A DNA stretch of 64,000 bases from NCBI GenBank assembly GCA_964036045.1, contig OZ038390.1, positions 33,358,819 to 33,422,818 on the forward strand, given 5' to 3'. Source of the DNA: Eutreptiella sp. 'Long Island Sound 2002'. Lineage: Eukaryota > Euglenozoa > Euglenophyceae > Eutreptiales > Eutreptiaceae. Shown here one piece after another: positions 20,701 through 61,010 of this stretch; the stretch's first letter is position 1, and every line of letters starts with the position of its first letter. The position numbers and the translations under genes are program-made. Under the pieces are notes generated by a model. That model was not told the origin of the DNA. It searched no databases and saw nothing but the letters and a program-made list of their open reading frames with translations.

Positions 20701-23700
20701 AAATAGGGTGAAAAAGATATAAATACGGCCTAAGACATACTTTACATACCTTGGATGGTCATTTTAGGTGATCACAATATCATAAAAACCGGTTTTGAAA
20801 ACTTCGATTTTTGAGCTGCCCAGGGTGAAAAACTGCATAAGCAGGTTGTGTACCAATCCCTTGGGAGCCCCCCCCCGTGCGGCCAATACCCAAATAGGGT
20901 GAAAAACACGCAAATACAGCCTAAAACATGCTTTACATACCTTGGATGGTCATTTTAGGTGGTCACAACATCAAAAAAACAAGTTTCAAAAACTTCGATT
21001 TTTGAGCTGCCCAGGGTGAAAAACTGCATTAGCAGGTTGTGTGTACTGGCCCATTCACTAGGCCATTATTGGTGGGAACAGTCATTTCGCGTCTTTGGCA
21101 CGGGTTGTGGACGGCCCTAGGCAAGGCTAGAGACTCCAAAAAACGTCCTTCCGTATCCTAGTAGGCATATTTTGTCACAACATCCCCACTCACACCCCTT
21201 AGAGTGGGTACCACGGGGTCACCGAGGTCGCCAAAACCGCCAACATAGCAAAAATGGCTGAAAAAGTGCATAAACTGCATAAGCGCTCGTCCCACTCCGC
21301 CCCATACAAACCCCATAGAGTCGGGACCCGGAAACACTTTTTCGGCTCAAAATCGCAAAAAACCAAAAGATTCATGATTTTCGACCCAAAAAAAGGGGGG
21401 GGTCATTTTTTCGACCGTTTTGACCCCCCCCCCCACCCCCACCCCCCCCCCTCAAAACCAATCAACGGAGAGGCCATTCGGGTGTGGTGCCCTCTGGGCC
21501 CCCTCGTCTACGCGGGCTGTAGCGCCGCAGCCAGTGCAGCCAGCACCGGTGGCACCCAGGGCAGGGAAGCACTCTTTGCGCCCTGGTGCCCCTCCACCTG
21601 CCCGCGGTACGCCCTCGGCCGTGGGGAGCCGGACCCAGCCCGCGTGGCAGCACCACCTGTGCCTAAGGCAGTCAAGGAGTGCGGGTCTGACCCCAGTCGT
21701 GCCACGTACCACCGCCTTCCCGTGCCAACAGGCAGTCGTGGAGTGGTTGGGTAGCATGTCCTAGTGACGTGGAGGTTGCGAGCCCAGGCCCACATCTCCC
21801 CCGGCGGGCTCAGAGTCAGGCTCTCCAGCCTCCCTGCCGGGGCCTGGAGCACCAGGCACACACTACCCCGCACCATGTGCGCCAACGCCGAACAACAATG
21901 GAGCAAGCAGGTGTGCCACAGCCCCCCCCCCCCCCCTCCACAAACACACAAGGGCACATACACACAGGCACGGCGGCATCTCCCGCCCGCGAGCGCCACC
22001 GCGGGGTCTGGGGGCGGTCAGCAGTCCGGTAGGCCTTGTGACCGGACACCCTGGTACAGCCGCCCGGTCGGGTCCGGCAGGGAAGGCGGCGCGGACCGTG
22101 GGTAGGCGACCAGGTGAGGCCTTCACCCAACCCAACCCAACCCAACCCCTCAAAACCTCAAAAAAGTGGGTTTCAAGTGGGGGGTGGTCTGGGGGGGGTC
22201 CGGACCAAAAACTCATTGGGGGATGCGTTTATTGGACAAAATAATGATTTTACAAGGGGTTAAACTAACAATTCAACCCCCTGGGGTAGGGTGCGCGAAT
22301 AGGCCCAAAAAAGCCAAAACGGGGGGGTATGTGGTGTTTTCCCCATATATACGCCTGCCTGGCTTTGATCTAACAACCTCTGCGAGGTGATTTTCCTCCC
22401 CACCAGCTCGGTCTCTGCCCTGCTGCTGCTGCTATGCTGAGATAGAGGTGGTGGTGGGGGGGGGGAAGGAGGGCTGCAAGCCAGTAATGGATTGGAGACT
22501 GTTTGCTTCGAGAACACCTGCTGTGCTGTTTCAGGTTGGCTGGGTATCTTGCATCAACAGCGCTTGCGCAGACCATTTTGGAAGTCTCTCATGACGTGTC
22601 CGTTATGATAACTGTGGGCATGATAGGGCTACTGCTGCTCTTTTGGGGCCCTCCCATTCACAAGCGATTCACCCCGGCACAGGTACGGGTACTTCCCCCT
22701 GGAAATCAACGCTGGCTGCAGGGTCTCAAGGAGGTCGGACTTCCAATGGTGCACGTGGGGGCGGCCGACAGAGCCCCTGCAACACTGGCGGGGGGGGGGC
22801 AAAAAATGGGGATGGGGGTTCAGGCAGTTCTGGGGGCCTGATTGACCATGGGGCCGCACCGTGCGCTGTGCAAAAAGTCGGCTGTTTTCCACCACCGGTA
22901 GCCACGGGTCCCAGGGTCCTGAATTCTGCACCCCCGATGCTGGTTTGAATTGATCATACATGCTTCTGTGGGTGGGTGGTTTTCAGGGGTGTTCCCGGGA
23001 TAAACAGCGCAATAATTGGCGCTGTGCGAAAAAACCCCCCATTAAGCAAGCACTACGAAGTTCAGCGACAGAGATGAATCTGCTGTTTTTGCCCTGTGGA
23101 CGTAGCTCCCCCGGTGGTGGGTGGTGTTCAGGGCGGTCACGGGACACCTAATTTACTGTTGTGCTGTGCCCCCCCTCTATTGAGACCATGGACGTTCCGG
23201 GGTTGGTGTCTCATCAATTGATCCCTTTTTGATGTGGGGGGTGGGGTCCGGCCACCGGGCTCTATTGCAAGCATTCACACCAGCTGCCATGGTCGTGAGT
23301 GTGAGTGAGTGGTGAGTTGTCCCATTTCGATTGGGTGACTGGTGAGTGCTTTTTTCATAAGGGACCTGACGCATGGAAGGTGTCGCCCATTTTTCACATA
23401 TTTTCCTCCGTTTTTTTCGCCACCCCTTACCTGTTCATCCAATTTCTGTCATGCGCCCCCATTTCCCCCCATTTCTCCCGATTGCACCCCATTTCCCCTC
23501 ATTACTTCCCCATTGCCCCCCATTTTCCTCATCCGCCCCCCCATCTAAAATCCTAATTTGGTGAGTTGGTGAATTCGGTGGCAGTTAGTGCTTGCTATCG
23601 AAGCCCCCCCCCCCCCAGCAGAGAAGTGAAACAAGGGCAGTCCAGGGGCTCCGTTGGCACAACCTCCCAAGGGAAAGGAAGGCTGGGTAGGGAGGTATGG

Positions 23701-26700
23701 ATGACACAAGGTGGTGAGAGGCTGATGGGCGCCGCTGCCTGCGGAGGGAGAGGGTTCAAGGGAAGGGCAGCGGTAAGTGGCAAGAGGCCCATAGGCGCCG
23801 CCTGCTGCCTTTTGCTTTCAGGCTTTCACCTGATCTGTTGAGGATTGTGAGCATTTTTTGGGGACATGGTTTTATTGAATTCCTTTGATTTCAATTTCCT
23901 CTCGGCCGAGTTTTCAAATTCTATTGCCTTCGGCAAGTCCACCTCGCAGAGCATCTACCCCAAGCAACGCACAGACAAAATAGGGTAAAAAACACGTAAA
24001 TACGGGCTAAAACATGCTTCCCGTATCTTGGATGGTCATTTTAGGTGATCACAATATCAAAAAAATGAGTTCCGAAAACTTCGATTTTTGAGCTGTCTAG
24101 GGTGAAAAACTGCATAAGCAGGTTGTGTCCCAATCCCTTTGGAGACCGCCCCCCCCCCCCCCCCCACCTAATACCCAAATAGGGTGAAAAGCATGCTCTA
24201 CATACCTTGGATGGTTATTTTAGGTGGTCACAATATCAAAAAAATAACTTTTGAAAACTTCGATTTTTGAGCTGTCCGGGGTGAAAAACTGCATAAGCAG
24301 GTTGTGCACCCATCCCTTGGCAGACCCCCCCCCCCCCCCCCGACCTAATACCCAAATAGGGTGAAAAACATGTAAATACGGCCCAAAACATGCTCTACAT
24401 ACCTTGGATGGTCATTTTAGGTGATCACAATATCATAAAAAAAAGTTTCGAAAACTTCGATTTTTGAGCTGCCCAGGGTGAAAAACTGCATTAGCAGGTT
24501 GTGGGCCGGCCCATTCACGAGGCCATTATTGGTGGAAACAGTCATTTCGCGTCTTTGGCACGGGTTGTGACCGGCTCTTAGCGAGGCTAGAGACTGCAAA
24601 AAACGTCCTTTCGTATCCTAGTAGGCATATTTTGTCACAATATCCCCACTCACACCCCTCAGACTGGGTACCAAGGGGTCACCGAGGTCGCCAAAACCGC
24701 CAACATAGCAAAAATGGCTAAAAAGTTCATAAACTGCATAAGCGCTCGTCCCACTCCGCCCCATACAAACCCCATAGAGTCGGGACCCAGAAACACCTTT
24801 TCGGCTCAAAATCGCAAAAAACCAAAAGATTCATGATTTTCGACCCAAAAAAAGGGGGGGGTCGATTTTTGACCCCCCCCCCCCCTCCCTCAAAACCTCA
24901 AAAAAGTGGGTTTCAAGTGGGGGGGGTCTGGGGGGGGGTCCGGACCAAAAACTCATTGGGGGATGCGTTTATTGGACAAAATAATGATTTTACAAGGGGT
25001 TAAACAAACAATTCAACCCCTTGGGGTAGGGTACGCGAATAGCCCCAAAAAGTCCAAAATGGGGGGGTATGTGGCGTTTTCCCCTATATACGCCTGCCTG
25101 GCTTTGATCTAACAACCTCTGCGAGGTGATTTTCAAACTAATTTTCGCACTGTGATCCATGGCTGTACATTTGTAGGTTTCTTCTGGGGCCAATGCACCT
25201 GCACTGCACTGCACTGCACTGCACTGCACTGCACTTCACTCAGCTCCAGCCAACCCCACTCCACTTTGTTCCATTCCGTTCCACTCCATTACACTGCTGC
25301 ACTGCGCTCCACTCCACTCCTCTCCATTGCATTGACTGCACTGCCCTGCGCTCCAGTCCACTCCACTCCAGGCCACCCCACTCCCCTCCCCTCTGCTCCT
25401 CGGCATCGTACTCCACTGCACTGCACTGCACTCTGTGCTGGCCTCAGGACTCGCTGCTTGAGACGGACAGCAAGCCACTTTTCCCCAGTTCACCAATCCT
25501 GCCTCCATCTGAGGCCACCACACTCTGGGAAGCCCTTCGCGGTGCAAAGCTCTGGTTATTGTTCTTGGCATTCTTCTGCGGCACAGGTATGATCTCCATT
25601 GGTGCATCTGAATGGCCGCTGCTGTGAATGGGGGGGCGCGATGGGTCTGCACAGACACGAGCTGCTGTGAAGCACAGCAGTCGCGAGAGCGGCATTGTGA
25701 AGCGTCAACGGAAGAAGTTTTTGGGAGGAGCCCCCAGGAAGTTACAGTAACTATCCCCAGCCCATCCAGTGACCCTACAGAGCCCATCAGGAAGTAACAG
25801 CAATCATCCGCACGGAAGCAACAGCACAGGGCGTTAGACCACAATTTTCTTTCATTTCTAAGGAGTAGTACCAAATCCCCCCCCCCCCCCATTTTGGCTC
25901 TCCGACTCACAACAACATAGACTGCATAAGCGCTCGTCCCACTCCGCCCCATACAAACCCCATGGAGTCGGGATCCTGAAATACTTTTTCGGCTCCAAAT
26001 TGAAAAAAAACCAAAAGATTCATGATTTCGGACACAAAAAGGGGGGGGGCATTTTTTCGACATTTTTGACCCCCCCCCAACCCCCTCAAAAAAGTGGGTT
26101 TCAAGTGGGGGGGTCTGGGGGGGTCCGGACCAAAATCTCATTGGGGGATGCGTTTATTGGACAAAATAATGATTGGGTTAGACCAACAATTCAACCTCTT
26201 GGGGTAGGGTACGCGAATAGGCCCAAAAAGAAGAAAACCCCCCTCAAAGTATTCCCCCGATGGTATGCGAGGCATGGATGGCTCCATGGGACCGTTTCAG
26301 GGTGCTTTCAGCTGTCAGCAACAAGCCTTCCCAAAGTGCCGTGGTAGCCTCAACAATTTGCGGTGAGATTTCCACCCCAGGATAGCCCTTGAGGACTTCC
26401 CTCCAAGGTGGCTAACTGCCGGCGGTTGACCTCCAACCATCGGCAGTTACTGGCTAACTGCCGGCGGTTGACCTCCAACCATCGGCAGTTACTGGCTAAC
26501 TTTTGTGTAATGTGGGTCAATTGCCAAATCGATGTGATTTGACCAACCTTTGTTGCCTCCCCGGCGGCCCTTGTCGCCTTCAGTTTTCTCAGACCGATCA
26601 CTCTCATGGCACTTTTGACGCAAAGTTGAACACGACGCGAAAGCGCTTTTGCCGCAGGAGATCTGAATTTTCCTCCGCTGCGCTGAGCCCACGGCAGCCC

Positions 26701-30800: not shown

Positions 30801-33800
30801 CCGCAACTGAAAGATTGGCTCCCATGGCTCAATGATGGTGTTGCTGAATGATTTCGACCCGGCATCTGTTTGCTTTTCTGCACACCCGAGGGCAGGACCC
30901 ACAGTGGTGCTGGGTGCTCGGGGGGGGGAGTGGGGGGAGGGTGCACAGCGTTGCTCCTCTATGCCTGCCCTCCCAGTCCATGGCCCTCCTTGCGCCCACT
31001 GGCTTCCTCTTGCAGTGGTCCAGGTGCTGCTGGCATACAGCTCCCACGCCCACTTGTACCCCGTCTGTTTGATCGCGGGCATCTGTTACGGTGGGTATTG
31101 GTCTCTGATGCCGACTATCTGTACCGATCTGTTCGGGATCAAGCACTTGGGTATGGTCTGTTTGCGGCAGAGGGCAGCCGCAAGGGCAGAAGGGGACGGG
31201 GGGGGGGGGCTTCGGGGACCGGGAGGGGCATTGCCTATCGGACCACTCGGGATGTGGGGTTCTCGCTGCAATCGGCGGATGATCTACCAGGGCCCATCGC
31301 AGTGCGTCGTGCCGGGGGGATCGCTTGCTTTGGGGTTGCTCCCGCCACAAAGATGGCGCGCACTGCGTCCCGTGCGGTGGTTGTGTTTTCGGAATGCGAA
31401 GCATCGGTTGTGTCGGAAGCATCGGTGTCAGCGTGGCAAAGGGAGGCAGGGGGTCCACGGCACGCGTATCTTGGGCCCCAGTGCGGACAAACAGGGTCAT
31501 GCCACTCGCCCCGCCACTAGAAAGAGGCCTCTGTCCATCGAGCAATTTTCATGAGTCCCACAAAACTGCGCCCCCCCCCCCAGAACCGATGTTACGATTA
31601 CCCAGCGATGGCATGCTTGTGCACCTGTCCCTAGGGACCCCCCCAGCACCCAATGGTCAAAGGGGTTAAAAAAAAAAAGCCCCTACAGAGGGCTCAACAC
31701 ATGCTTTACACTTGATACTTGATCCATGTCAGTGGCCACAATGTCCAGAAAAGGGGCTTTGGAATTTTCGATTTTTGAGCAGCCTCGACCCCAATTCCAA
31801 TGAAGACAGCGATTTCACAACTTTCAAACGGGACCCGACAAAAGTCCTTGATCTCAAAATCGCACAGATCCCAAAGAATTCGTGGTGCCCCCTCCCCCTC
31901 CCAAAAAGGTGTGGTCTTTGTTCCCCTCCTTGCCTTTCGCAATGGTTGAACCCCCCCACCCCCAGTCACTGGGTGGCCAACCCCCCCCCCCCCCATCCAC
32001 GTGTGGGGGTTTGTTACACCAACTGATCCTTTGGGGCATCCCTTGGTGGCAAGGAGAGAAACAGCAAGATGGGCAGAGGCAGCCAAGCAAGAGCTGCAAG
32101 AAGAGATACAGCATTTGGCTTTGCTCTACTTACAAATATTCTTTTGATTTGATCTTTTTTGTTGCGGCGGCCCCAACAAACATTTTTGCATGGTCTGCCC
32201 CACAGTCATGCACAGCGAGAACATCAAGCATGGTCCAACAGTGGAGGATGGGGTGCCGCATGCTGCGTCTCATGTGGGCGCCTGCAGTGCCATCAGTGGG
32301 CGGGGTATCATCCAGCACTGGCCAGTCATCACGGATGTACCCTTGCATGATGGTCACCCAAGAGGCATCCCATGAGGGTGGAGAGTCGGGAGTGGGTCGC
32401 GGCCTTATTGCCCCCCCCCCCCCCCTGGGCAGCACGATGCGGCCGACAACAATATCACGGCCCGCTGGGTGCTTTGGGATGTTCAGTCGTCGGCAGAATG
32501 TCCTGTTTTTCGGGGTTGATGGTGAGTGGTCAGTGGTTTCTTCACCCCCACTTATGTGTAGTTAAAGTGCTCAGAGAAGAAGGGGTAATTCCAATATGAC
32601 AGAGAAACAATAGCTGAAGATTCGTTTGACCCCCCCCCCCCGACTTTATGACAGCCCCCCCCCCCCCACATCAAGGTTCAAAGGCGAGAGGCCAATAGGC
32701 GCGGCCACAGGCTAACAGAGAAAGACGCCCGCGTGGTGCGCGCGCAGTGCCGGCGTTTTCTACGTGCACGGACAACTTTTTCTTTCCCCTTGTGCTGTTT
32801 TGTGCACCTGACCACTATTTGCCTCCCTTGTGGTGAGCCCGTGTGCCGTGGCATCGTCGCATGCAGAAATTGCACTTGATGGTGCGAGCCGTTGTGCACA
32901 TTCAGCAATTTCTGAATGTGCGCAATGTGCGCTATGAGCCCTACGGCCCCTGGGACCACTTCCCAAGTGGCATTTACGGGCAGCCACCGGCCACGAGACG
33001 CCGTGGTTCAGATTCTGATTCCGATTCGGATTCGGATTCCTCATCCTCAGGCTCGTCACTTACGTCCGCCGATGAAGAGGAAGAGGAGGCTTCCCGGTAG
33101 CCGACGTCGTGACAATCGAAACGCGAAACGAACCGATACGGTTACTTCTTGGGTTTCGGCACCCCAAGAAGTAACGCTCCGAAAACGCGAAACAAGTGCA
33201 TTGAGCATAGCGAAACGGCCTCACGACCCCTGCAACGACACAACCCCTACAACAACACGACCCCTACAACAACACGACCCCTACACCAACACGACCCCCA
33301 CACCAACATGACCCCTGCAACAACACGACCCCTACAACAACACGACCCCTACACCAACACGACCCCTACACCAACACGACCCCTACAAAGACACAAAACA
33401 CGAAACGAGTGCATCACTGAGGCGAGCACACCGAAACGGTTGCATCATGGGAATGGGCACCCCATTGAGCAACATGTCGAAACACGATACGATCGAAACG
33501 GCTCCACAGGCTTGGGCACCCTGTGGGGCACTAGGCTCTTCGGTCGAGCGGCCGTACCGGAGAGTTCTACATCTTCTTCTTCCTCTTCCTACGGCCCTCC
33601 CCTGGCAGGGGGTGTGGGCAGCTACAACCACCTTTGGTGAGGAGGCTGGAGTGGAGGCCTCCGTTGTTGTATGCGTACCCCTTAGGCCACCGCGTCCTTG
33701 CCACCCTGAAAAAAACTTGAAAAATGCAGAGGGTTGCTAGAAACGCCTGCGCGGTGCGCGCGGTGTGGGCGTCTTTCTCACAGAGCCAACCACCAAGGCT

Positions 33801-45673: not shown

Positions 45674-47294
45674 ATGACCCGCCCCCTGAAACGGAAAACA
45701 CATGAGGTATGGAGGCTCGTCAAACAGCTGCAAAACAAGCGCAAGCTCCAGCAACTTAGAAATAAATTTGGTGTGGTGATTACAGATCCGGACGCCATCG
45801 GCACTGAAATTTTGGCAGCAGACTATGTCCGTCACAGGCCCTCCTCTGGAACAATGCTCCAGCTATCTTCACAAAATTTTTCAAGGAAAAGATATTGCTT
45901 TTATGGCTAAGGTTCTCATCAAGCCATTGACAAAGGACCTGGTACATGCAGCCCTGTCTAACCTGAATGCCACGTCATCCCCAGGGTTCGACGGTATTCC
46001 CTGTGCTGTGTACACTGCCTTCGCTGGTGCATTTGTCTCAGTTATGTTTCATATTATCTCCAATTGTTACGCCAGTGAAACTATTTCAGACTCGTGGTCC
46101 CTGGCCCTTCTCAATGTGATTCCGAAGGCCCGAGGAACGGTGACTATGCGGGAACTGAGGCCCTTGGTCCTTCAAAACACCTGCCATAAATGGTTTGCAG
46201 CGTGCATTTCACTACAACCACAGGATCTTATTGGTGCTCTGACGCCGGTGCAACAAAAGGGCTTTTTGAAAGGCAGATATATCTTTGATCACCTATGGAA
46301 TGCCTTTGGCTCCTGGTCCTCGATGACGGAGGGCCTTATGTGCCTGGTTGATTTCAGTAAAGCCTATGATTCTGTCTCCCATGAGTACGCAGCTTCCTTT
46401 TTCACCCTCATGGGGCTCCCACAGTACCTTATCAAAGTATTGATACTCTTGTTTCGCGCCCCCATGGCGCTGATTGTACATGACTCGGTCAGACTGGACC
46501 AGCGAATTCATCCGACCTCGGGAATCCGGCAAGGTTGCCCCCTGTCCCCCACCCCGTTTGCCCTCCTAATTTCCCCCATTGCGGTTTATTTGTCTGATGT
46601 AAATTCTTGCATCGAAATTTTGCTGTATGCAGATGATCTGCCGATCATCATTACGCCCCCCCCAATGATGGCGGCTACGCTGCTGCTTCATTGCCTTGAT
46701 CTGCTTGAACATTTTTCTATTTTTTCGGGCCTCAGTATCAACTCCGATAAATCAGCGATCCTGCTGGCTGGCATCTGGGACGATGCGGCCAAATCTCTTT
46801 TTAGTTGCACTGATATCAAAGTCTGCTCCTCCTACAAATACTTGGGGTTGAAGCTAGGCTACGTGTCCCCTGAGGAGGCTTTTGCTCCAGCTATGCAAAA
46901 GGCGATGGGCAGAGCTGTGTCCACGCGACACTGGAAGCTAACCCTTCGCGAACGGGTTTTCCTCTTAAAACTTTGGATTCTCCGTGTGCTGGTGTACCCC
47001 TCCAGAGTGATTTATCTGTTCAAACAAGTCGTTAACTCCCTAAAAGTCATCTACGACATCGCGTTGGGCCTCAACACTTGGGGCCTCACACATGAAATCC
47101 TTGCCCTCCCGGAACAGGAAGGGGGAATGGGACTAGCTATGCCACGGGATTTTCTACTCTGGCATCACTCAGCCTTGTATCCCCAGGGGACCATGCAGCC
47201 TCACACAGTCCCACCCAGGATTCGCGATGACTTTGACCGATGGGCTACGCTACGCGGCATTGCGGTTTCCCCCTCGACGCTCCCCTTTTTTTAG
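45674..47294 (+). pseudogene. LINE reverse transcriptase
   Basis: The linker frame 45674-45830 (HEVWRLVKQLQNKRKLQQLR) shifts to the main frame 45825-47294 (489 codons). RT motifs counted from 45825: SSPGFDGIP, IPKARGTVTMRELRPLVLQN, LVDFSKAYDSVSHEY (motif A, Asp in place), SGIRQGCPLSP at 232 (motif B), LLYADDLPI with YADD at 268-271 (catalytic pair intact), GLSINSDKSAIL (motif D) and YKYLGLKLG. The thumb (LTLRERVFLLKLWILRVLVY) follows. A TAG at 47292 ends the frame, and downstream coding continues in the same frame from the next codon. The upstream endonuclease is missing, so this is a 5'-truncated copy. Confidence 0.85.
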
Positions 47295-48058
47295 ATGGAC
47301 GTCAATATCCCCCGGGAGTCTCTGCCATATATGGCTTTTAGTGCAAAAGCCTTTTCCCTTCTACGCCAACGATTGAATATTTCCATTCCCAGCGAACTAC
47401 CCTACGATATGCCTCTCTGGCATAACCCGATTTTCCACAATAAGCACTTCCACTCCTATGCTTGCCCCGCTTTGATCCGCTGCAGTGTACTCACGGTGGG
47501 TCAGCTGCTGGAAGATGATTCTAGTCTGATCTTAATCGCCCCTACTTGGCAGGCAGTTTATCGTGATGCCATAGGCCAACCGGCCACCGGGATGTATGAA
47601 TTTGATGCCCAGACAACACACCCCGCTGTTTGTTTTTCTACGCTGCTTGCAGAGTGGCATGCCGGAACGGCCATGGCAACCCTCTCGTACCCTAAGGAGA
47701 TAGAACGGCGACAGGACGCATCGGTGTGGGAAGCCCCAGGAAAGTCCCCACTACCGGATCAGGATAAAGATTTCGTCAGGGTGCCCTCTGGCGTAAGCTT
47801 TCAGTTGGTATGCGTCAGTGCAAGCGGAAGCCCGGTGACACCCTCTGCCCTATTGACAACAAACATGAGACTGTAGACCATGCTTGCTTTGACTGCAAAT
47901 TCTTGCTTCGAGCTTTCATGATTATTGACCGTTGTTTCTATCATTATGAAACGAGTGCGGGCCGTTGCTCCTCGGTCCGAGACCTCTTAATGAAAGCCCC
48001 GGATACGGCCTTGGGCATTCCCCCGGGGTTGCTGCCTTGGTCTGCCATTAAGGTGAAC
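47295..48058 (+). pseudogene. LINE C-terminal region with Cys/His knuckle
   Basis: The same frame as the RT resumes directly after TAG (DVNIPRESLPYMAFSAKAF, then MPLWHNPIFHNKHFHSYACP), a usual stretch between RT and zinc knuckle. Near 47800 the frame shifts and reads CKRKPGDTLCPIDNKHETVD, HACFDCKFLLRAF, a C-x(n)-C-x(n)-H-x3-C type knuckle typical of LINE C-termini. It is interrupted at the AAC codon 48056-48058 by the YR element. Confidence 0.75.
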
Positions 48059-48123
48059 ACTAGTTGTGCCTCGTCTCAACTTTTGTTTGCGTCTCCAATG
48101 TTTAGGCAGTTTTCCTGTCTTTG
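48056..48123 (+). repeat. split direct repeat A1
   Basis: 68 bp from aacactagttgtgcctcgtc to cctgtctttg, identical to 54263-54330. The gag-like ATG follows 13 bp later. Confidence 0.93.
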
Positions 48124-48136
48124 TTTTTGTTAACCC

Positions 48137-48769
48137 ATGGACGGGGTTGAGCAGCCTAATCAGAACCAACAAGAGTCAGCCGAGGAGCGGCTGGCGGCGC
48201 AAGCCAAAGAAATTCAAGAACTCAGAGAGCAACTCGCCCGGGTGGCAGTGAAGGAGGGGCCCCGCCTGCCCCCACTGAGCGTGCCAGAAGTAAACCGAGC
48301 CCTCGAGAAGCCCCAGTTGGCACAGTGGATGAGACTCATGCTGTCCAACATCAAGGCGTACGTACGCCTTAGAGCTGGTGAGGTGGGGGAGATCCCCCGA
48401 CCAAGTGAGTTTGGCGGCCAGGTGACGGAGGCCGCAGTCGACCCAGGAGAGCAGCTGGCGTGGAGGGTCTGGGACTGCGTGTCCCAGTCCCAGGCGGCGT
48501 ATGCCCGCAGGTATGCAGGGACGCACGGGAAATCCAGCTCCGAGTCCAACCAGTACACCACGCTGGAGGAGGCATGGAAGGAGCAAGGGTCGGCGTTCAC
48601 GTGGCGGAGCGTGAAATTCAGGGAGGTGGGGGGAGTACTGCAATGGCAGACGAGGCAGGGCGAGTGGATCCCTGTGGACTCGCCGCCGAGCGGAGGGTGC
48701 CAGAGGTGCGCGCAGCGGGGCTCCCCCGACGAACGCCACTGGCACTTTAGATGCCCACACTGGTCCTGA
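48137..48769 (+). CDS. gag-like protein of the YR retrotransposon
   Basis: 210 residues. The N-terminal ~45 residues form a likely coiled coil (ESAEERLAAQAKEIQELREQ). The middle is helical and charged (LAQWMRLMLSNIKAYVRLRA). The C-terminus has a Cys/His cluster (CQRCAQRGSPDERHWHFRCP) that could bind zinc and nucleic acid, as Gag knuckles do. The ATG at 48137 is the first after repeat A1. It ends at TGA 48767-48769, and the frame continues open on the far side straight into the recombinase, so the stop may be read through (TGA is followed by C, a context known to be leaky) or may be a mutation. Calling it Gag rests on position and these features, not on clear homology. Confidence 0.72.
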   Translation: MDGVEQPNQNQQESAEERLAAQAKEIQELREQLARVAVKEGPRLPPLSVPEVNRALEKPQLAQWMRLMLSNIKAYVRLRAGEVGEIPRPSEFGGQVTEAAVDPGEQLAWRVWDCVSQSQAAYARRYAGTHGKSSSESNQYTTLEEAWKEQGSAFTWRSVKFREVGGVLQWQTRQGEWIPVDSPPSGGCQRCAQRGSPDERHWHFRCPHWS

Positions 48770-50620
48770 CAGGACCGGCTGGAGCCCGGACCGGCCGCCC
48801 CGGGCTCCGGCGTTGGAGACACGGCGGCAGAGCTGCGGGCGCTCGCCCGCCGGTGGGAGACAGCAGCCCGGACAGACGACCCCTGCTCACCGGAGGAAAG
48901 CGCCATGCAGTCCTGGAGACCGAGAACCCGCTCACAGTACGCGTCCCGACTCCGGGCCTTGGCGGCTTATGCGGGCCGCGCGGGCCCGCCTGATACAGCC
49001 GCGGCACTGGCAGGCCTCCTGGCAGAGCGGGCCCAAGCCGGCGCTACAGCGTCGGCCCTACGGGGTATTACCTCCGCGGTCCGGGCCGTGAAGGACCTCC
49101 AGTGGCTGCCCCCAACAGTCACCACCTTGCACAAAAGGATTGCGGCGGGAGCCGCATCCTCGGGCTCTCAACCATATCTGTCCCCAGCAGGCTTGGTCCA
49201 GCTGGTCCAAAAGGCCAGAGACTCCAGACACGGAGCGGTGTTCAGCGCGTTGGCCATCATCAGCTGGGTATGCTACCTGCGGGTGGGCGAAGCAGCTGGC
49301 ATCAGGGTTACTGACCTGGCTATGCCAGGCTTTGTCCAGTTTTGGAACTCCAAGACAGGGGAGGAGGGGTATACCACCCGCCCCCTGTACAGGTATGCGG
49401 ACGGCGTCCGGGCGTGGATTCATGGCCACATGGTTTCGCTGGGCCGATCCTCAGACATGCTCGTATGGCAGTCAGGGGAAGCGGGGTTGGAGGCAGGCAT
49501 GGCCGAAACCCTGGCGAGCACCGCACACTCCCGAGCCAGGTGGCACGCCCTGCGCAGGGGAGGCGCCGCAGCGACTTGGGCCCGTAAACCAGACCTCGCC
49601 TACTACAAATGGTGGGGCAGATGGCAGAGCACGGCCGTGGCGATGCAATACGGCGCCAAATGGTCAGACCCGGGAGTCGTTGCCCCTACGGTGCTGCCCG
49701 CGTGGTCCCGTGACCAGGGGCCTTTGCCGACTCCGGAACGCGTGGGCGTCCTGGCCCTGTGGGGATCCCCGATGTTCCCCAGTATCGCGAGCGCCCTCAA
49801 CACCCCGACCAAGCGCAAGCCGAGACTTCCGCGAGGTCAGGAGCTGGAATCCACTGCGAGCGGCACGCTTGGGGGAGGAGGCGACGGAGACCAAACCGCA
49901 ACCGAGCTGGAGGAATCCCCAGGGGACGGCTCTGCTGAGGTGGGCCCGGGGCCTGACACAGCTACTACCCTCCCTCCACTTCCTCCTTTGGCCTCTGCCA
50001 TTGAGCGCGGCGCCGTGTCTCGGGAAGGTGCGGGTCAGCTGTGCACGGTGGCGGGGCCTTTGGTTGCCGTGGGGGGGAGGGCGTGCTGGCCGGGGACGGC
50101 AGCCGGGCCCATCAATGTCGATTCCGACGTGGACACCGACGACAACAGTGAGGATTCCGGAAGCGAGCCCGCTGGCGAATTCGCAGTCGGCAGCGCCAGG
50201 GGCTCCCCCGGGCGTCGACAGGCCGGAGTTGCCAGGTTCGTTGGGCGGGAGCGTAAGCCGTGGTCCTCCAGGGCGGCCGTTGGCCCTGTCAGAGGAGGAC
50301 CCGCAGCGGGCTCGAAAGCTGGAGTGGTGGGCCGTGTCCACCGCACATACACAGGGCCGCGTCGCGCTAAGGTGGTCCTGGGTGGTACGCAGGCCGTGCG
50401 ATCCCGAGCCCCTGCACGCCGTCAAGCTGGGCGACCTCGTTTGGCCCAGCAGATCGGAACGCCGCAGCCCAAGCGCATCAAGCTCGGGCAGGGCGGGCAT
50501 GTCCGGACGCCGGAGGCGCAAGGCCCGGTGGAGGGTGCCTTCGTGGCTGCAGCTGAGCGTCTCAAGGCCAAGGCTTGGGGGCGGGCGGGCCCAGTGGCGT
50601 CGCCCCCCCCCCCTCTGTAA
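48770..50620 (+). CDS. tyrosine recombinase (integrase) of the YR retrotransposon
   Basis: The first ATG is at 48905, but the frame is open from the gag stop, and residues before the ATG (ELRALARRWETAARTDD) look like the start of the N-terminal DNA-binding domain. Counted from 48905: N-terminal SAM-like domain about 1-80 (SWRPRTRSQYASRLRALAAY), catalytic domain about 90-260. Catalytic residues seen are Arg126 (CYLRVGEAAG), His214-x-x-Arg217 (RWHALRRGG), Trp in GRWQSTAVAM and nucleophile Tyr249 (AMQYG), a complete set. The enzyme would recombine the circular cDNA with the target through AAC. The last ~310 residues are a Gly/Pro/Arg-rich linker ending at a C tract (50603-50613) and TAA; beyond it RT coding goes on in another frame. 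Confidence 0.85.
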   Translation, partial: QDRLEPGPAAPGSGVGDTAAELRALARRWETAARTDDPCSPEESAMQSWRPRTRSQYASRLRALAAYAGRAGPPDTAAALAGLLAERAQAGATASALRGITSAVRAVKDLQWLPPTVTTLHKRIAAGAASSGSQPYLSPAGLVQLVQKARDSRHGAVFSALAIISWVCYLRVGEAAGIRVTDLAMPGFVQFWNSKTGEEGYTTRPLYRYADGVRAWIHGHMVSLGRSSDMLVWQSGEAGLEAGMAETLASTAHSRARWHALRRGGAAATWARKPDLAYYKWWGRWQSTAVAMQYGAKWSDPGVVAPTVLPAWSRDQGPLPTPERVGVLALWGSPMFPSIASALNTPTKRKPRLPRGQELESTASGTLGGGGDGDQTATELEESPGDGSAEVGPGPDTATTLPPLPPLASAIERGAVSREGAGQLCTVAGPLVAVGGRACWPGTAAGPINVDSDVDTDDNSEDSGSEPAGEFAVGSARGSPGRRQAGVARFVGRERKPWSSRAAVGPVRGGPAAGSKAGVVGRVHRTYTGPRRAKVVLGGTQAVRSRAPARRQAGRPRLAQQIGTPQPKRIKLGQGGHVRTPEAQGPVEGAFVAAAERLKAKAWGRAGPVASPPPPL

Positions 50621-52570
50621 GGGTCCCGACAGGGGTGGGAGGGTGCAGGAACAGCCCCCCCTCTTCCTGGAGTTCATGCAGGCACTCACCCCCCATTTTC
50701 ACTGGATAGCCGAGCGGGAACGTTGTGGCTTGTGGATGGTTGCGAAGAGGGTGGATTTGTGGTTGAATAGAGTATTCGATACAGCCGAGGATTTCCGCTT
50801 GCACGGGGCTTTACCCGCTCTCCTGGGCGCCTTGCGCAAGCTCCACCCGGACGCCTGGGAGGCATGCCTCCATATCAACACCTCCCCCATTCCGCGGTTC
50901 ATGGGGGGGGTCGAGGATGCCATTTTGGACCGGGGATTGGGGCCGATAGGCTCCCACCAGATCCCTGACGATCTGTGGGACGCTGTCGTACCGCCCTTCT
51001 ACCGCGGAGGGCTCCAGGATTTTGACGTCGAGCGGGAGTGGCAGGACGGGGATAGGGTGGTCCGAGGGGCAACCAGATGGGTGTCACAGCAGGTCCAGAG
51101 GATAGTGCAGGCGTTGAGGGGGGCGGGGGTCTACGAGGAGACGTCTGACCCCCCCCCCCCCCCACGTGTTACCCCTTCGTCATCCCTAAATCCTCCGAGA
51201 AGGTATCCTTGATCTTGAGTTGCGTCAAGATCAACAAGAGTGACGGGGGCAAGCCCCCCACTTTTAGATTGGATTCCTGGGAGGATTTGGCTAGGTCCTT
51301 GTCGGCATTCCCGCCTGATGTGGACCTCTACGGCCTCCACATTGACCTCAAAAATGCGTTTTGGAGCTTTTGCTTGCCCCAGGGTGCGCGCCAGGTTTTT
51401 CGCTTCCGGCCCGCCCCCGGGGCTCCGCCTGTGGCGCTGTCGCGCCTACCATTTGGCTGGAAATACAGCCCCTATCTGTGCCAAACGAGTTTGGCTCGCA
51501 TTCTCCAGGGGGTACTGCCCCCCGAGATACTCCTTGTGCACTACCTTGATGACTTTTTGCTCGTCTTCACTGATAGGGAGGTGCTCAGGGAGGCGGGGCG
51601 AGTGGCAGTGCGTGCCCTGATCGAGGCTGGATTCCTCATAAGTCCTAAGAGTGTCCTGGACCCGGTGCCTGTGGCGTCATTCCTGGGGAAGGAGCTCGAC
51701 TTGCAGGCTAGGCAGATCAGGAGCCATGAACAAGCGCTGCTCCAGTTGTGGGCGGGATGGCTGAGGCCGGCGGTTGGCGCAGGCAACGACCGGCACCTCC
51801 AAAGCTTCCTGGGTTTACTGAATTGGCATGTGCGTCCGAGGGGATTGGGTTGCCCTTTCGCGGCGGGCGCCTACTGCTGGTTGCGCTGGGGTAGGACGGT
51901 GGGGGGGGTCAAGCAGCCGGCCCAGGGCTTCCCCCTGAAAATGCTGGGCAGCCTCGCAACATTGGTGGCGGTGGCGGCCGAGCCCTGGCAGGCACCGGGC
52001 GGGGAGGCCTGGAGGCAATTGAGGGCCCTCCAGTTTGGGACTGAGGATAGGCTTTCGCGATCCTCTCTGTGGTGCGGGGGCGTCGTCATCTGTGTTGATG
52101 GAGCGCGCGATGCGGGGTGCTGGAGGGTGGGGGCGCTCGTGCCGGGGGTGGGTGTGCGTACGCATGTGACACCTCCTGCCCGCTTGGCCAGCCAGCAAAC
52201 CACGGAACTGAGGGGAGTGGCGTGGGCTGTCAGGTTTGCAGTCAGGACAGGACACCGATCTGTTACGGTCTGTAGCGACAGTGAGGCGGCCATTGCTCAG
52301 GTCCTCAGACTGCGCGCGACTAGCCACCTGACCCACCACCAAACGGTCCTTCGGTCGTTGGCTAGGGTCCTGTGGGTATCAGGGATCGTGCTCCGCCTCG
52401 TGTGGGTGCCCTCGGCGCTTCAGCCGGGAGACCCTATGTCCAGGGTGACGTCAGTGTTCGGAGGCTCACAGGCCAGAGCGGAAGTCGAGGCTTGGTGCAC
52501 GTGGGATGCATTGCTGGAAAATCTGGGCGAGGCTCGGGTGAGGGGGGTGGTGTGTCTCCAGAGATGCTAG
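50614..52570 (+). CDS. reverse transcriptase - RNase H of the YR retrotransposon (frameshifted)
   Basis: The N-terminal part (about 50640-51148: ERCGLWMVAKRVDLWLNRVF and onward) is one frame off the recombinase. A 15-base C tract (51149-51163) then shifts it back, and coding continues to TAG at 52568-52570. RT blocks: YPFVIPKSSEKVSLILSCVK, LHIDLKNAFWSFCLP (motif A Asp present), LPFGWKYSPYLCQTSLA and VHYLDDFLLVF with YLDD at 51542-51553. RNase H: CVDGARDAG (Asp), QQTTELRGVAWAV (Glu), VCSDSEAAIAQ (Asp) and VPSALQPGDPMSR (Asp), so all four acidic positions are kept. The two C-tract shifts cancel each other modulo three. They may be sequencing or assembly length errors, real decay, or slippage sites. 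Confidence 0.85.
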
Positions 52571-52650
52571 CCCCCCCCCCCCCCCCCAGTAGGCCAGCGG
52601 CGGCAGTGTATGCGCCCTCCATGTAGCAACCTTTTTTGCTATCCGCACCT

Positions 52651-53160
52651 ATGACCAAGCGTCGGGGCTCGCGTGGGGCCCGCAAGCGACAGGGTTCCCG
52701 TGGAGCCCGCCGAAAGGGTCGCCATGGCGGGCAGCGGCACCAGCGTTCCGCAGGCGCACAGCAGCGCCGGGCGGCGAAGTGGAGCAGCGTGCTCCGCACC
52801 CGCCTTCGCGGCAGGTTGGCGCGCCTGCCCATCCGCCGGGTGCTGCTCGGCAACGGGGTGCGCCTGTGCCCCCAGTGCCCCCTCCCTGACGACAGGGAGG
52901 GGTTTTTGGAACGGGCGGTCCGGGACGTGGCCGCGCGCGTGGGAGGCACGCCGCACCGCCGCACGACCCCCGACGGCCACAGCGTCAAACCCCCAGGGCG
53001 GCATGCCTGCTGCCAGGTCTGGGAGGTAAGGCTGCCGGAGGGGGTCGCAGTGGTCTCCCTAACGGACTGGAACCAGGGACGCAGGGTTGCTGTACCCTAT
53101 ATATGGATCCAAGCCCGGTATGGGCTGGTGTTGCAATTTGCCCGCCTCTTCAACCCGTGA
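52651..53160 (+). CDS. small basic protein of the YR retrotransposon, unknown
   Basis: 169 residues from ATG 52651. The start is strongly basic and repetitive (KRRGSRGARKRQGSRGARRK). A middle segment has CPQCPLPDD (CxxC), then a Cys pair (HACCQVWEVRLPEGV), and the C-terminus is hydrophobic/aromatic (AVPYIWIQARYGLVLQFARL) before TGA. The position after RNase H is where DIRS elements carry a methyltransferase or other extra ORF, but no SAM-binding motif is visible. The arginine-rich head suggests nucleic-acid binding or nuclear entry. Whether it is conserved in other copies cannot be judged here. A C tract (52571-52587) separates it from RT-RNase H. Confidence 0.55.
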   Translation: MTKRRGSRGARKRQGSRGARRKGRHGGQRHQRSAGAQQRRAAKWSSVLRTRLRGRLARLPIRRVLLGNGVRLCPQCPLPDDREGFLERAVRDVAARVGGTPHRRTTPDGHSVKPPGRHACCQVWEVRLPEGVAVVSLTDWNQGRRVAVPYIWIQARYGLVLQFARLFNP

Positions 53161-54223
53161 GGTCTGCCGGCTGTCGTCGTCGTCTGTCCCTGCCCACTGC
53201 AGTGGGTGTCCCTGACGGCTTGGCCGCTGGGTGCTGATTTGGTTTTGTATTTTTGGGCCGCGTCGGTCCGCGTTCCGCTGGAGCTGACGGCCGGGTGCTG
53301 GGACTGGCCGCCTTTTACCGTCAGTGAGACTCCCCGACAGTCGTGTTCGCCTGTATCTGCCCTCTGCAGAGGTTGACTCCGACGGCGTGGCCGATGGGTG
53401 CGCCTGTCTTGTTGTCTTTTTGCTTGGTTGGCGGCACGGCCGCTGGGTGCTTTATTTATTCACCTTTTTGGGCCAGCCTCACTCTGCATCCGGCTGGGAC
53501 TGACGGCCGGTTGGTGCGATTTGCCCGCCTCTTTGTCCGCAGGGCACGGCGACCGTCGTGATCGCCTGTATCTGCCCGCGTGGTGGCTGTCCGGGGCGGC
53601 ATGGCCGCTGGAGGAGTCCGCCGGACGTGGCGCTGCTGGTTTAAGCTTGGTGCCCAACACGGCTCCTGCCTTCCCTCCGCCTCGGCCTGGGGACTGCCAT
53701 TTGCTGGATTGCTACCTCGGTGCACATCCCTCTGGGGCTGGGGTTAGGTAGTGGACCCTGTGGTGGATACCTGGATACGGCGGAGACCTTTTTGGGCCTG
53801 CTTCACTCCGCGCCCGGCTGGGGCTGACGGCCGGTTGATGCGATTTACCCGCCTTATTTGTACGTGGGGCACGGCGACCGTCGTGACCACCTGTGTCTGT
53901 CCACTGTGGTGACTGTCCATGGCGGCGTGGCCGCTGGAGGATCCGCCGGGGGTGGCGCTGTTGATGTGGGCCCGGTGCCCGACACGATTCCCGCCCTCCC
54001 TCCGCTTCGGCCTCTGGCCTCTGCCGTTGAGCGCGGCGCCGTGTCTCGGGAAGATGCGGGTCAGCAGTGCACGGTGGCGGGTCCCCTGGTTGCCGTGGGG
54101 GGGGGGGGTTGCTTCTGTTGCTTTGCATTTTGCTTGATTACTACCTCAGTTCACATTCCTCTGGAGCTGGGATCCGGATGTGGGACCTGTGGTGTGAGAA
54201 CTGGGTACAGCGGAGAATGAATA
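53161..54223. repeat. 3' non-coding part of the YR element, degenerate ~320-bp repeats
   Basis: Four imperfect units share gatttgcccgcctctt, ggcacggcgaccgtcgtga, tggccgctgg and ctgacggccggttg (near 53137, 53335, 53519, 53840). Part of the recombinase ORF's linker (49910-50090, phrase gcggcgccgtgtctcgggaa) is duplicated at 53940-54110, and a weaker version lies at 53612-53700. Confidence 0.78.
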
Positions 54224-54265
54224 CCCAAGTCCTGTGCAGTTTTCTTGTGCTCTGCTTGTGCAAAC
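54224..54265 (+). repeat. split direct repeat B1
   Basis: 42 bp, cccaagtcctgtgcagtttt to cttgtgcaaac, identical to 54569-54610. Its last AAC is shared with the start of A2. Confidence 0.93.
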
Positions 54266-54330
54266 ACTAGTTGTGCCTCGTCTCAACTTTTGTTTGCGTC
54301 TCCAATGTTTAGGCAGTTTTCCTGTCTTTG
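54263..54330 (+). repeat. split direct repeat A2
   Basis: 68 bp identical to A1. The B1/A2 junction is the sequence expected at the closure of a circular element. Confidence 0.93.
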
Positions 54331-54568
54331 CCCGCCCACCCACCCACTGACCGGCTGACCCCCTGAGAGCACCTGCCCTTTCCTTTCCCTTTTGAAACCG
54401 ATTCCCTCGGGTAGAGTGGGGGATCTAACCGTGCTGCAGCGTGTGGACCAGGGTATAGGGTCAGGGTCCGTTTCAGAGTGGGGTCCCGCATCCAGCGGAG
54501 TGGTCCGCAGCGCACCCGTCCATACAACCGCCGGTATTCCGGCCTTGGTGATACTTCAGTACTGCCAT

Positions 54569-54610
54569 CCCAAGTCCTGTGCAGTTTTCTTGTGCTCTGC
54601 TTGTGCAAAC
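54569..54610 (+). repeat. split direct repeat B2, right end of the YR element
   Basis: Identical to B1. Its terminal AAC borders the LINE sequence that resumes with taggaccttcgctg. Confidence 0.93.
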
Positions 54611-55498
54611 TAGGACCTTCGCTGTGCCCTACGCAAGACACATTTTCATGTTTCCACGCCGGCTTTTCTTACCCGATGGGTTAAGCGACTGTTAATTTGG
54701 CAACAGGTTCAGGTCTGGGTGCTATCCCCCAAAACGCTGTCCGCGTTCATTGATGTTGTACTTTCCTCTACTTCTGACACGCCTATAGCTTATCCTTCTC
54801 TCAGTGCCATACCACCCACGCCGCCACCCTCTAGAGCCCAACTACGGGCGGCCCGGCGCTTGGAACGTAAGTTGAGGTCCGTGGACAAACTAAACAAACA
54901 CTTGGAGCAGGCCAACACCCTGGCCAACCAGGGCCGAATCATGAACCCCCTGTACCCCGTAAAAGGCACGCCACATGGCCGCCGTCAGCACCACACCTGT
55001 ACCCCACACAAAACGGCCAAGAAGCCCAAACTACCAGCTCGGGAGACATCCCCAATCAGGCCTCTTGCCCTCGAATTTGATGGTGTCGCGGGCCCCAGTC
55101 GTCACAGCGAAACACTGGAACCGGTTCCGCCCCCATCCCCCCCTCCGTGCCTCAGTGATCTAGGCCTACATTTTATGCCCGATGATGTTGATAGCTTCTC
55201 CCCAGCACACTCCGTTTTAACTTTCCTGCACATCCCATCCCCTGCTAGGTCTGGCTCTTTCTTCTCCTCCCCTGCGGAACGCCAACCCTCCACCTCTTGC
55301 AGTGAGAGGGGGAGGGTGGTTGAATGGATTAAGGTGCCGTTGCACGTAGGAATTCAAGGCAACGAAGAAGCCGATTCTCTAGGTGAAAACGGGCGGCTGA
55401 GTAGCCCTCTGCTCAGACAGTCCGTTGCCCTTGCAGCTTGCAATATCAAACAATCTCTGGCCCCGAAAAGGGGAGCTTCCCCCCCCCCCCCCCCATGA
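54608..55498 (+). pseudogene. LINE 3' part: end of Cys-rich region and RNase H C-terminus
   Basis: In register with the left half through AAC, the frame reads TAG, then DLRCALRKTHFHVSTPAFLT and RWVKRLLIWQQVQVWVLSPK. It continues through a Pro/Arg-rich linker (LRAARRLERKLRSVDKLNKH) to VVEWIKVPLHVGIQGNEEAD, the conserved C-terminal RNase H motif (H-V-G-x-x-G-N-E-x-A-D). The YTDGS half of RNase H is missing, and the frame ends in a C tract at 55480-55494. Confidence 0.68.
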
Positions 55499-57980: not shown

Positions 57981-60246
57981 GACCCTAATCAAGACTGAAT
58001 ATTGGGACCGAGCTCGGGGGGAGGGAACATCAGCTATGACTGGTGAGGGACATCAAGAATGATTGATGGCTCTTGACAAAGTGACATCAGCTTGCAAGTG
58101 AACCCCATCACCACGAGGCCCACTTTCAGGCTTTTGGATTCTTAGGGGCCAATGCCCAAAAGGGCTCAAATGGGCTCATTTCACCCGTGGTTAGGATGAG
58201 GTTTGGAAAAATGCGTTTTTGACCCATTTTTGACCCATTTTTGGTCCCAAAACAGCCCCATTTTCAAGGCATTTTGGGATTTTCGGAGGACCAAAATGGG
58301 CCACCACAAGCTCAAAGCGGTCCAAAAACACTTGTTTTGGCGTCGCACATGGTCTAGGATCATTTTTGAGAAAAGTCATCTTTTTGCCCCTGCTGGACCC
58401 TGGACCCTGTTGACCCATTTGGGCACCCACCTGTTTGGGCTTGAGCTTGCAGCTTGCCGCAGCCTAGTGGGCCTAGGTATTGGGGTCTAGGCGTCCGTTT
58501 GGGCAATTCTAAGGGGTGGAAACCACAAAAAGTGGCGGGTTGCGAGTGGAGTAGGTGCCCTCGGAATCGCATTTTGAGCCATGTAGCCAAAGATATGGCC
58601 TATTCTTGGTTTGTGGCTGTCGGCATTTGGAGCTTCTTGGGGGCCTTTTTGGGCCGTTTCCGCGACATATCATGGAGTTAGAGGCCGCAAAGAGCTCGTT
58701 GACACGGGGAAGTCAAGCCGCACGTGGAGTTTACCCACCGTTTCCTTCATTTGGCCGTTTTGAATGTGTTCCAGGGCTTTTTTGGCCCAAAAATGGCGGT
58801 TTTTGGCCCTAAACTGCAGTTTTTGAAACTGAGGTCCGCCACTTGCGAATTCCGTTCCCGGCCGCCACCGTTGAGTTTCTTGCTCAAACTTTGTGTGATT
58901 GTACTTCACACCCATAGGTATCATCCACCAAAATTTCACCCGAATCTGAAGCACCACGACGGAGTTGTGATTTTTACCCATTTCGCGCGTGCTGCTTGCT
59001 TGCTGCTGCTGCTGCTGCTAAACCTGGTAGGTCCACCCTAGACACTAAAAAGGGTTATAAAACCAAGACTGGTTCCACCAGCTCGGTGACCCTAATCAAG
59101 ACTGAATATTGGGACCGAGCTTGTGGGGGAGGGAACATCAGCTATGACTGGTGAGGGACATCAAGAATGATTGATGGCTCTTGACAAAGTGAAATCAGCT
59201 TGCAAGTGAACCCCATCACCACGAGGCCACTTTCAAAGCTTTTTGGATTTCTTAGGGGCCAAAATGCCCCAAAATGGGCTCAAAATGGGCTCATTTCACC
59301 CGTTGTGCACCCCAAATGGTCTAGGATGAGGTTTGGAAAAATGCGTTTTTGACCCATTTTTGACCCATTTTTGGTCCCAAAACAGCCCATTTTCAAGGCA
59401 TTTTGGGATTTTAGGAGGACCAAAATGGGCCACCACAAGCTCAAAGCGGGCCAAAAACACTTGTTTTGGCGTCGCACATGGTCTAGGATCATTTTGAGAA
59501 AAGTCATCTTTTTGCCCCTGCTGGACCCTGGACCCTGTTGACCCATTTGGGCACCCACCTGTTTGGGCTACCCATTTGGGCACCCACCTGTTTGGGCTTG
59601 AGCTTGCAGCTTGCCGCAGCCTAGTGGGCCTAGGTATTGGGGTCTAGGCGTCCGTTTGGGCAATTCTAAGGGGTGGAAACCACAAAAAGTGGCGGGTTGC
59701 GCGTGGAGTAGGTGCCCTCGGAATCGCATTTTGAGCCATGTAGCCAAAGATATGGCCTATTCTTGGTTTGTGGCTGTCGGCATTTGGAGCTTCTTGGGGG
59801 CCTTTTTGGGCCGTTTCCGCGACATATCATGGAGTTAGAGGGCCGCAAAGAGCTCGTTGACACGGGGAAGTCAAGCCGCACGTGGAGTTTACCCACCGTT
59901 TCCCTTCATTTGGCCGTTTTGAATGTGTTCCAGGGCTTTTTTGGCCCAAAAATGGCGGTTTTTGGCCCTAAACTGCAGTTTTTGAAACTGAGGTCCGCCA
60001 CTTGCGAATTCCGTTCCCGGCCGCCACCGTTGAGTTTCTTGCTCAAACTTTGTGTGATTGTACTTCACACCCATAGGTATCATCCACCAAAATTTCACCC
60101 GAATCTGAAGCACCACGACGGAGTTGTGATTTTTACCCATTTCGCGCGTGCTGCTTGCTTGCTGCTGCTGCTGCTGCTAAACCTGGTAGGTCCACCCTAG
60201 ACACTAAAAAGGGTTATAAAACCAAGACTGGTTCCACCAGCTCGGT
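57981..60246. repeat. tandem duplication of a ~1.1-kb unit
   Basis: Copy 1 57981-59087 and copy 2 59088-60246, both starting gaccctaatcaagactgaat and ending accagctcggt. Copy 2 carries an extra 29-bp internal duplication (acccatttgggcacccacct... near 59540-59597) and about 20 bp near 59300. Both contain (ctg)n near the end. A diverged relative lies at 13.9-14.3 kb. Parallel ORFs in both copies lack coding character. Confidence 0.88.
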
Positions 60247-61010
60247 GACCCTAGCCCTAGCTCTCACCCCAGAGGGAGGGCAAGGGGAGGTAACGGGAGC
60301 CCGTGCCCCCCCCCCCCCCACCACCCCAAATCGCCCCACTGGGGCTGCTGGGGTACTCGCCGCCAAACCCTGCTATTGCCTGCAGATCACAGGAACGAAG
60401 CGTCCAGACAGAATTTCAAACTCAGAGGCTGGGCCTTCGGCCCCCTCACACCAACTATGCCACTCCAGCCATGCGTAATGTCTACAGCACCATGACACAC
60501 CAACAGCAATCGAACACACAGACACACAGCAGAACACACCATAGGACTACCACAGCAACTGAGAGCCGAAGGAGTGCTTGATTACAGTAGCAGTGGGAGG
60601 TAAGACACACAGTATGTCGCATGAAGGCAGCACTTGCCGATATATAAGTCATCAGGTGAACACGCACGAATGTTGAAGTTTGATTGTAGATATGGATGTA
60701 GCTTTTATGACGGATGAATACATTGTGCTTCATCTAGATTGTCCATAGCATATCCTCTCGAACACAAGAACAGTTGCAGTGTGAATGATGATTGCGCTCA
60801 AATCGCCCCACCTGGACCCCCCCCCCCAACCCACCCTCCCGACCGCCCCCCCCCCCCCCATCGCCCCTCCGTGAACCCCCCCCCCCCTCCAATGCCCCCC
60901 CCCCCCCCCCCCCCCCCCCCCACCTGGGGGCCTTCGGCCCATTTCTACTGGGGGGGGGTCGCATACAAAAGCGAGGTGACGGCCCACCCGTGGGTGCAAT
61001 AGAGAACAGC
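60247..61010. other. spacer rich in C tracts
   Basis: It contains several C tracts, the longest about 27 bases at 60895-60921. No gene recognised. Confidence 0.5.

Follow-up and report, generated by a model that had tools for sequence, protein, structure and literature searches.

A clean insertion into a LINE

How does a retrotransposon that encodes a tyrosine recombinase (YR) enter its target, and which bases at its two ends belong to the element and which to the host? The question is raised by a 64,000-nucleotide stretch of the genome of Eutreptiella sp. 'Long Island Sound 2002' (contig OZ038390.1, positions 33,358,819 to 33,422,818, forward strand; this whole stretch is called the window below), in which a YR retrotransposon with split direct repeats, of the order DIRS, interrupts a long interspersed nuclear element (LINE). 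Its two pairs of direct repeats, A (68/68 bases identical) and B (42/42), neither of them extendable by a single base, are arranged along the element as A1, the open reading frames (ORFs), B1A2 and B2; no further 16-base word common with A or B occurs anywhere in the window on either strand. A first-pass annotation of the window had described these lengths, identities and this order, all of which hold without extension, and had pointed to an AAC at the left flank (gtgAAC), at the internal junction (GCAAACACTAG) and at the right flank (GCAAACtagg) of this copy, as the sequence confirms.

The same annotation proposed that excision at AAC restores the LINE reading frame in register and without duplication, and that an uninterrupted LINE be sought. 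Joined at AAC, the flanks read ...WSAIKVN*DLRCALRK... in a continuous register, and the left LINE flank, used as a query, returned the locus itself together with 21 paralogues, whose identity over that flank is 79-90%; all are uninterrupted, with one alignment each running through the joined flanks, and the site closes exactly at AAC. Because the closest paralogue (90.7% identical over the joint) matches the joined flanks through the joint (gtgAACtGGgac versus gtgAACtAGgac), no base was gained or lost here: insertion at the LINE AAC added sequence and neither removed nor duplicated any. The site triplet is AAC in 9, AAT in 9 and AGC in 2 of the 20 paralogues aligned across the joint without a gap in the query (the remaining one, L028, has such a gap and is not counted), and the codon that follows in these 20 is TGG in 17, TAG in 2 and CGG in 1; the in-frame stop of the joined LINE is thus a TGG/TAG base difference and not a scar. 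The idea that a base was lost or duplicated at insertion is rejected by the LINE paralogues and by the empty sites of two further copies, L050 and L052, and no target-site duplication was seen at any empty site checked, whether of the LINE or of other copies.

A young family with a constant right end

Searches for other copies across the 2.28-Gb genome, in which only the best candidates were scored so that all counts are lower bounds, yielded at least 40 copies of the A repeat at 100% identity (the best 40 of 902 candidates) and at least 141 matches to the YR domain, all at least 95% identical (the best 141 of 6694 candidates), 13 of the 141 with an internal stop in the matched stretch. Since the scored A matches are identical and the YR matches nearly so, the family is, judged by sequence divergence, young and present in high copy number. 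The A-repeat search, which the first-pass annotation had also suggested, gave 35 places, 17 of which were read with long flanks and six of the other 18 only as 3-kb loci; wherever they could be read, the copies have the same right terminus and internal junction as the copy in the window. Counting only matches of at least 90 bases (B1A2) or 33 bases (B2), we find the internal junction GCAAACACTAG in 23/23 copies and the right end GCAAAC in 22/22, to which a later set adds 3/3, for a right-hand AAC in 25/25.

The left end is different. We read it in 32 copies that had been found through A2 or the YR, and so chosen blind to the left end: 17 windows found by A2, less four without A1 (L049, L051, L062, L063), and 20 copies found by the YR, less one without A1 (L069). 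The window copy and six copies found by a query-identical A1 were kept out, a choice of that kind favouring AAC. The left triplet is AAC in 9, ATC in 9, ACC in 8, TTC in 4 and TCC in 2, such that all 32 begin with A or T, none has G in the middle and all 32 end in C. Insertion follows a W-H-C triplet (WHC), of which only the C is invariant among left ends. The first-pass annotation had regarded different termini in other copies as grounds for refutation; the left triplet does differ, while the right end does not, and AAC as a fixed target is rejected by the left ends ATC, ACC, TTC and TCC.

Empty sites identify the origin of the variable triplet. At the L052 site, 10/10 paralogues (10 of the 40 scored were read) carry ATC, as does the left end of the copy; at the L050 site, 9/10 (again of 40 scored) carry ACC, like the copy, and one carries ACT. 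Of the 40 scored paralogues at each of these sites, 37 and 32, respectively, match all 183 bases at equal length. Local paralogues agree with the left end of L055 (1/1, ATC), L057 (2/2, AAC) and L059 (2/2, ACC; both belong to a recent duplication in the window, at 59006 and 60165), and the neighbouring repeat unit of L068 carries ACC like that copy, in a comparison that covers the left flank. The agreement is partial at L054, where 4/9 paralogues have TTC like the copy and 5/9 have TTG, and the two local paralogues of L050 both have ACT where the copy has ACC; an alignment of L056 to its own flank did not run through the joint and is not counted. Because the empty sites carry the same triplet as the left ends, the left triplet is that of the target: insertion leaves it in place to the left of the element, whose own AAC comes to lie on the right. 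The AAC that opens A1 is accordingly rejected as element sequence, its first two bases varying among copies where ACTAG does not; this family takes that triplet from the target, and the inserted unit proper runs from ACTAG to GCAAAC (Table 1).

Every copy with a left triplet other than AAC and a readable right end has AAC on the right (13/13, as 10 and 3 from two sets; two-sided sign test, 0.0002), and so have all eight copies that carry AAC on the left and could be read at both ends (8/8); the reverse arrangement occurs in none. For five of the 13 (L050, L052, L054, L055 and L059) the target was compared with paralogues, and for the other eight it is taken to follow the same pattern. The first of the two sets excludes L048, whose right end was unreadable; the second comes from 12 right-end windows of copies found by the YR whose left triplet is not AAC (seven with AAC on the left lie outside this set), of which three have a B2 end, one has B1A2 only and eight have neither (one with a cut-off B2, one in a neighbouring repeat unit). 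None of this one-sidedness is visible in the window copy, because its own target is AAC.

Bases around the target show weak preferences (G at -4, 20/39; A at -2, 20/39; G at +4, 14/25). Some copies lie within tandem-repeat arrays whose neighbouring units can be used as empty sites (L054/L040, L048/L001, L057/L002 and L068/L106).

How the ends might arise

What kind of exchange keeps the target's triplet on one side only? The best overall explanation, to which we give a probability of roughly 0.7, is a YR retrotransposon whose circular complementary DNA (cDNA) is exchanged on the minus strand after WHC, leaving one-sided ends. With the B1/A2 copy of the end-to-end junction inside the element as a guide, reverse transcription would produce a circle with the junction GCAAAC/ACTAG, and the YR would exchange this circle with the target at the C of WHC. 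On each strand, a YR cuts at the 5' side of the overlap that it exchanges. The inherited exchange would then be that on the non-coding strand (the minus strand, that of first-strand cDNA), because only there does a YR cut after C put the overlap on the side of WHC/AAC, the one on which target and circle agree. Exchange of a single strand, with replication completing the insertion as it does for integron cassettes, is the most likely course. The edge of the exchange is fixed after the C, and any overlap reaching leftwards from there would look the same.

The first-pass annotation had read the locus as integration of a circle by the encoded recombinase through a 3-bp crossover site. Its split-repeat YR retrotransposon, clean closure and circle-type junction inside the element all stand, and from them we too infer circle integration; AAC as a required, shared 3-bp crossover does not, given that left ends vary.

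The strongest competitor, possible although we would bet against it, keeps the circle double-stranded and lets the YR exchange both strands through a Holliday junction, with the resulting heteroduplex resolved one way by mismatch repair or by a bias linked to chromatin or replication. Two-strand exchange of this type is the textbook YR reaction, and it accounts for the precise ends and the lack of duplication. Completed on both strands, it would leave heteroduplex at both ends, and the two arrangements would come out of replication in equal numbers: unless a bias intervenes, one copy in two should have AAC on the left and the target's triplet on the right, an arrangement observed in 0/13. The 13/13 one-sided result is therefore not predicted by equal segregation of a double-strand exchange, whereas it fits exchange of one strand followed by replication. 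We know of no reason for so strict a repair bias; even so, biased repair after a double-strand exchange would leave the same ends as single-strand exchange, and this weighs against the explanation we favour. The published model for DIRS1-like elements has a circle recombine at a 3-bp junction with identical genomic sequence (PMC3266345), which lends two-strand exchange a precedent; in the present family the target need not equal the junction triplet.

A single-stranded circle of first-strand cDNA, on the other hand, would give one-sided ends without further assumptions. We offer only tentatively, as something short of an even chance, the more specific proposal that the circle joined by the YR to one target strand after WHC is single-stranded, minus-strand cDNA and that host replication makes the second strand, perhaps as a general mechanism of the order DIRS.

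It is unlikely that the target is instead opened without overlap, by the YR or another nuclease cutting bluntly after WHC, and that a linear double-stranded cDNA from ACTAG to GCAAAC is then inserted. The product is exactly what such a blunt insertion would leave, but known tyrosine recombinases cut with a stagger, the end-to-end junction kept inside 23/23 copies would be needless for linear insertion, and at positions 1 and 3 the target is like the junction's AAC. In favour of a linear form, Malicki et al. 2020 reportedly deals with linear, single-stranded cDNA of DIRS, going by the title. Chance, an assembly artefact or an old rearranged composite can be set aside as having next to no probability: no support for any of them was found, and many near-identical copies with the same right terminus and internal junction lie elsewhere in the genome, alongside the empty sites of the LINE and of other copies.

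With a family this young, rich in copies and provided with natural empty sites, the mechanism of insertion becomes a matter of counting which triplet survives at each end. The one-sided 13/13 points to first-strand cDNA and makes the integration mechanism testable; were single-strand exchange correct, a eukaryotic retrotransposon would integrate in the manner of an integron cassette. For DIRS1, insertion was said in a 2018 paper to await experimental demonstration (PMC5941688). Among the titles and abstract beginnings covered by our literature searches, a coverage that key papers of the field lie outside, no report of one-sided ends was found.

Coding capacity of the element

The genes of the element (Table 1) are ordered gag, YR, reverse transcriptase (RT) with RNase H (RH) and ORF4 in 5/5 long copies read. 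ORF1, gag-like by position, is an open frame of 211 codons with no Pfam family at cut-off; a single TGA (48767-48769) separates it from the YR frame of 616 codons in the same phase, in which 45 codons precede the first ATG. This TGA is kept in 7/7 copies read, which suggests stop readthrough or re-initiation. In the RT region, RVT_1 is matched in Pfam (4.5e-13) and retroviral RTs in PDB, and for RNase H there is only RVT_3 at 0.0067, below the Pfam cut-off. The region is open in two of four other long copies, and in the window copy a frame change coincides with the run of C at its start. ORF4 is open for 177 codons, 169 of them from the first ATG, begins Arg-rich, and has no family match in Pfam or NCBIfam and none in PHROG below E 0.11.

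Ratios of non-synonymous to synonymous substitution rates (dN/dS) against the window copy, counting only matches that cover 90% of the query, are 0.05-0.24 for gag (18 comparisons), 0.19-0.25 for the YR (5), 0.14-0.17 for the RT (4) and 0.20-0.57 for ORF4 (19). By this measure all four ORFs are under purifying selection, and ORF4 looks like a real gene because synonymous changes dominate. Runs of C or G at 50603-50613, 51149-51163, 52571-52587 and 54097-54108 lie near ORF ends and recur at similar places, with differing lengths, in five long copies.

Table 1. Features of the retrotransposon and of the LINE around it (window coordinates)
Feature	Position	Strand	Remark
Host LINE, left part	45780..48058	+	RT ORF 45780-47294; later frames to 48058
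Target triplet AAC of the window copy	48056..48058	+	LINE-derived, directly left of the element; target origin by empty sites of other copies
Inserted unit, ACTAG ... GCAAAC	48059..54610	+	
Repeat A1	48056..48123	+	First three bases are the target's
ORF1, gag-like by position	48137..48769	+	Ends in TGA; YR ORF in the same frame
ORF2 with tyrosine recombinase	48770..50620	+	Domain 48902-49720
RT and RNase H part of ORF3	51149..52570	+	Begins in C15 run 51149-51163
ORF4, no family found	52651..53160	+	
3' non-coding region, diverged internal repeats	53199..54113	+	
Repeat B1	54224..54265	+	
AAC of internal B1/A2 junction	54263..54265	+	Constant in 23/23 copies read
Repeat A2	54263..54330	+	
Repeat B2, ending in AAC	54569..54610	+	
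Host LINE, right part	54611..55498	+	Open frame 54614-55498; paralogue homology tested for 54608-54800

Identification of the ORF2 domain as a tyrosine recombinase, which here takes the place of the usual integrase, is supported by presumed catalytic residues and by a predicted fold of the Cre/lambda/Xer type. In an alignment of 37 rows, counting those with a letter at the position, the expected residue is present at R127 in 25/32, K151 in 28/33, H215 in 21/23, R218 in 23/25, W241 in 16/19 and Y250 in 13/19. A first fold, predicted from a shallow alignment, was poor (predicted local distance difference test score 52; XerD top in Foldseek, at E 0.72); with the deeper alignment then used, Foldseek ranked Cre best (E 4e-4), followed by lambda Int and XerA, with an integron integrase at rank 20. 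By sequence, Pfam gave nothing at E up to 1, NCBIfam nothing, a PDB search nothing relevant and PHROG a weak integrase match (E 0.021). Topoisomerase IB and tyrosine recombinases have a common catalytic fold, and topoisomerase IB chains are listed beside the recombinases in the VIA listing; the rest of the element argues for a recombinase. The YR profiles of Pfam and CDD do detect the YRs of fungal DIRS and Ngaro elements. A YR that precedes the RT and escapes Pfam implies that similar elements may be under-annotated.

Relation to known elements

Split direct repeats are described for Ngaro, PAT and VIPER (PMC6681497, PMC9210276, PMC4157794). Ngaro-like elements (Xenopus DIRS-53_XT and the Cafeteria Ngaros) resemble ours in having split direct repeats A1/B1 A2 B2 as identical pairs, a YR, RT/RH and a gag-like ORF. 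The Ngaro gene order gag-RT/RH-YR is nevertheless not that of our element: the Cafeteria Ngaros have RT/RH in ORF2 and the YR in ORF3, whereas here the YR precedes RT/RH, and the Xenopus Ngaro has gag, RT/RH, YR and then SGNH, whereas here ORF4, without a family match, follows RT/RH. Ngaro-like elements have no MT domain, whereas PAT-like ones combine it with split direct repeats; in our element, Pfam found no MT match in the four ORFs scanned, a scan that lay outside 50621-51148 and that missed the YR as well.

The physical gene order of VIPER is gag-YR-RT/RH. A table and its legend name gag, YR and RT/RH in this order, and split direct repeats A1/B1 A2 B2 are described for VIPER of T. cruzi and C. 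fasciculata. VIPER/TATE elements differ in that the descriptions consulted report them only from kinetoplastids and mention no ORF4; the likeness is one of repeat layout and gene order.

DIRS1-like elements have a YR, RT/RH and a circular junction of 3 bp and integrate without duplicating the target (PMC3266345); for DIRS-1, circular cDNA is on record (PMC5633606). They differ in their inverted terminal repeats and MT domain; between 47500 and 55300, a search for inverted pairs of at least 25 bp (seed 14) returned none, so that inverted terminal repeats of DIRS1 type are absent there. The element thus fits the order DIRS, departs from Ngaro in gene order and from DIRS1 in repeat type, and has a VIPER-like gene order; we leave off any placement below the order.

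AAC junctions occur among DIRS1-like elements too, in GaDIRS1, GaDIRS2, SkoDIRS2 and TnDIRS1a (PMC3266345). In Table 3 of that paper, the two ends carry equal triplets in 18/28 DIRS1-like elements; among the remaining 10, seven start complementary to the junction and deviate at the end, one (AcasDIRS1) does the reverse, and AmDIRS1 and BfDIRS2 are unclear. On the strength of that table, a polarity of the ends may be more general, with AcasDIRS1 as one case against; the part of the paper around the table makes no remark on it. If single-strand exchange is indeed what our element undergoes, it would have in common with integron cassettes a YR exchange of one strand (there the bottom strand) resolved by replication. 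The likeness would be one of mechanism only: integron cassettes are bacterial, use folded attC hairpins and involve no reverse transcription.

Other features of the window

Two empty copies of the repeat entered by L059/L031 lie at 59006-59147 and 60165-60259, both with ACC at the site. The duplication around them (58413-60199) has a spacing of ~1.16 kb and contains two stretches, of 272 and 300 bp, at 100% identity. Tandem arrays occupy 16395-24627 (units of ~191-196 bp) and 33188-33421 (17 bp).

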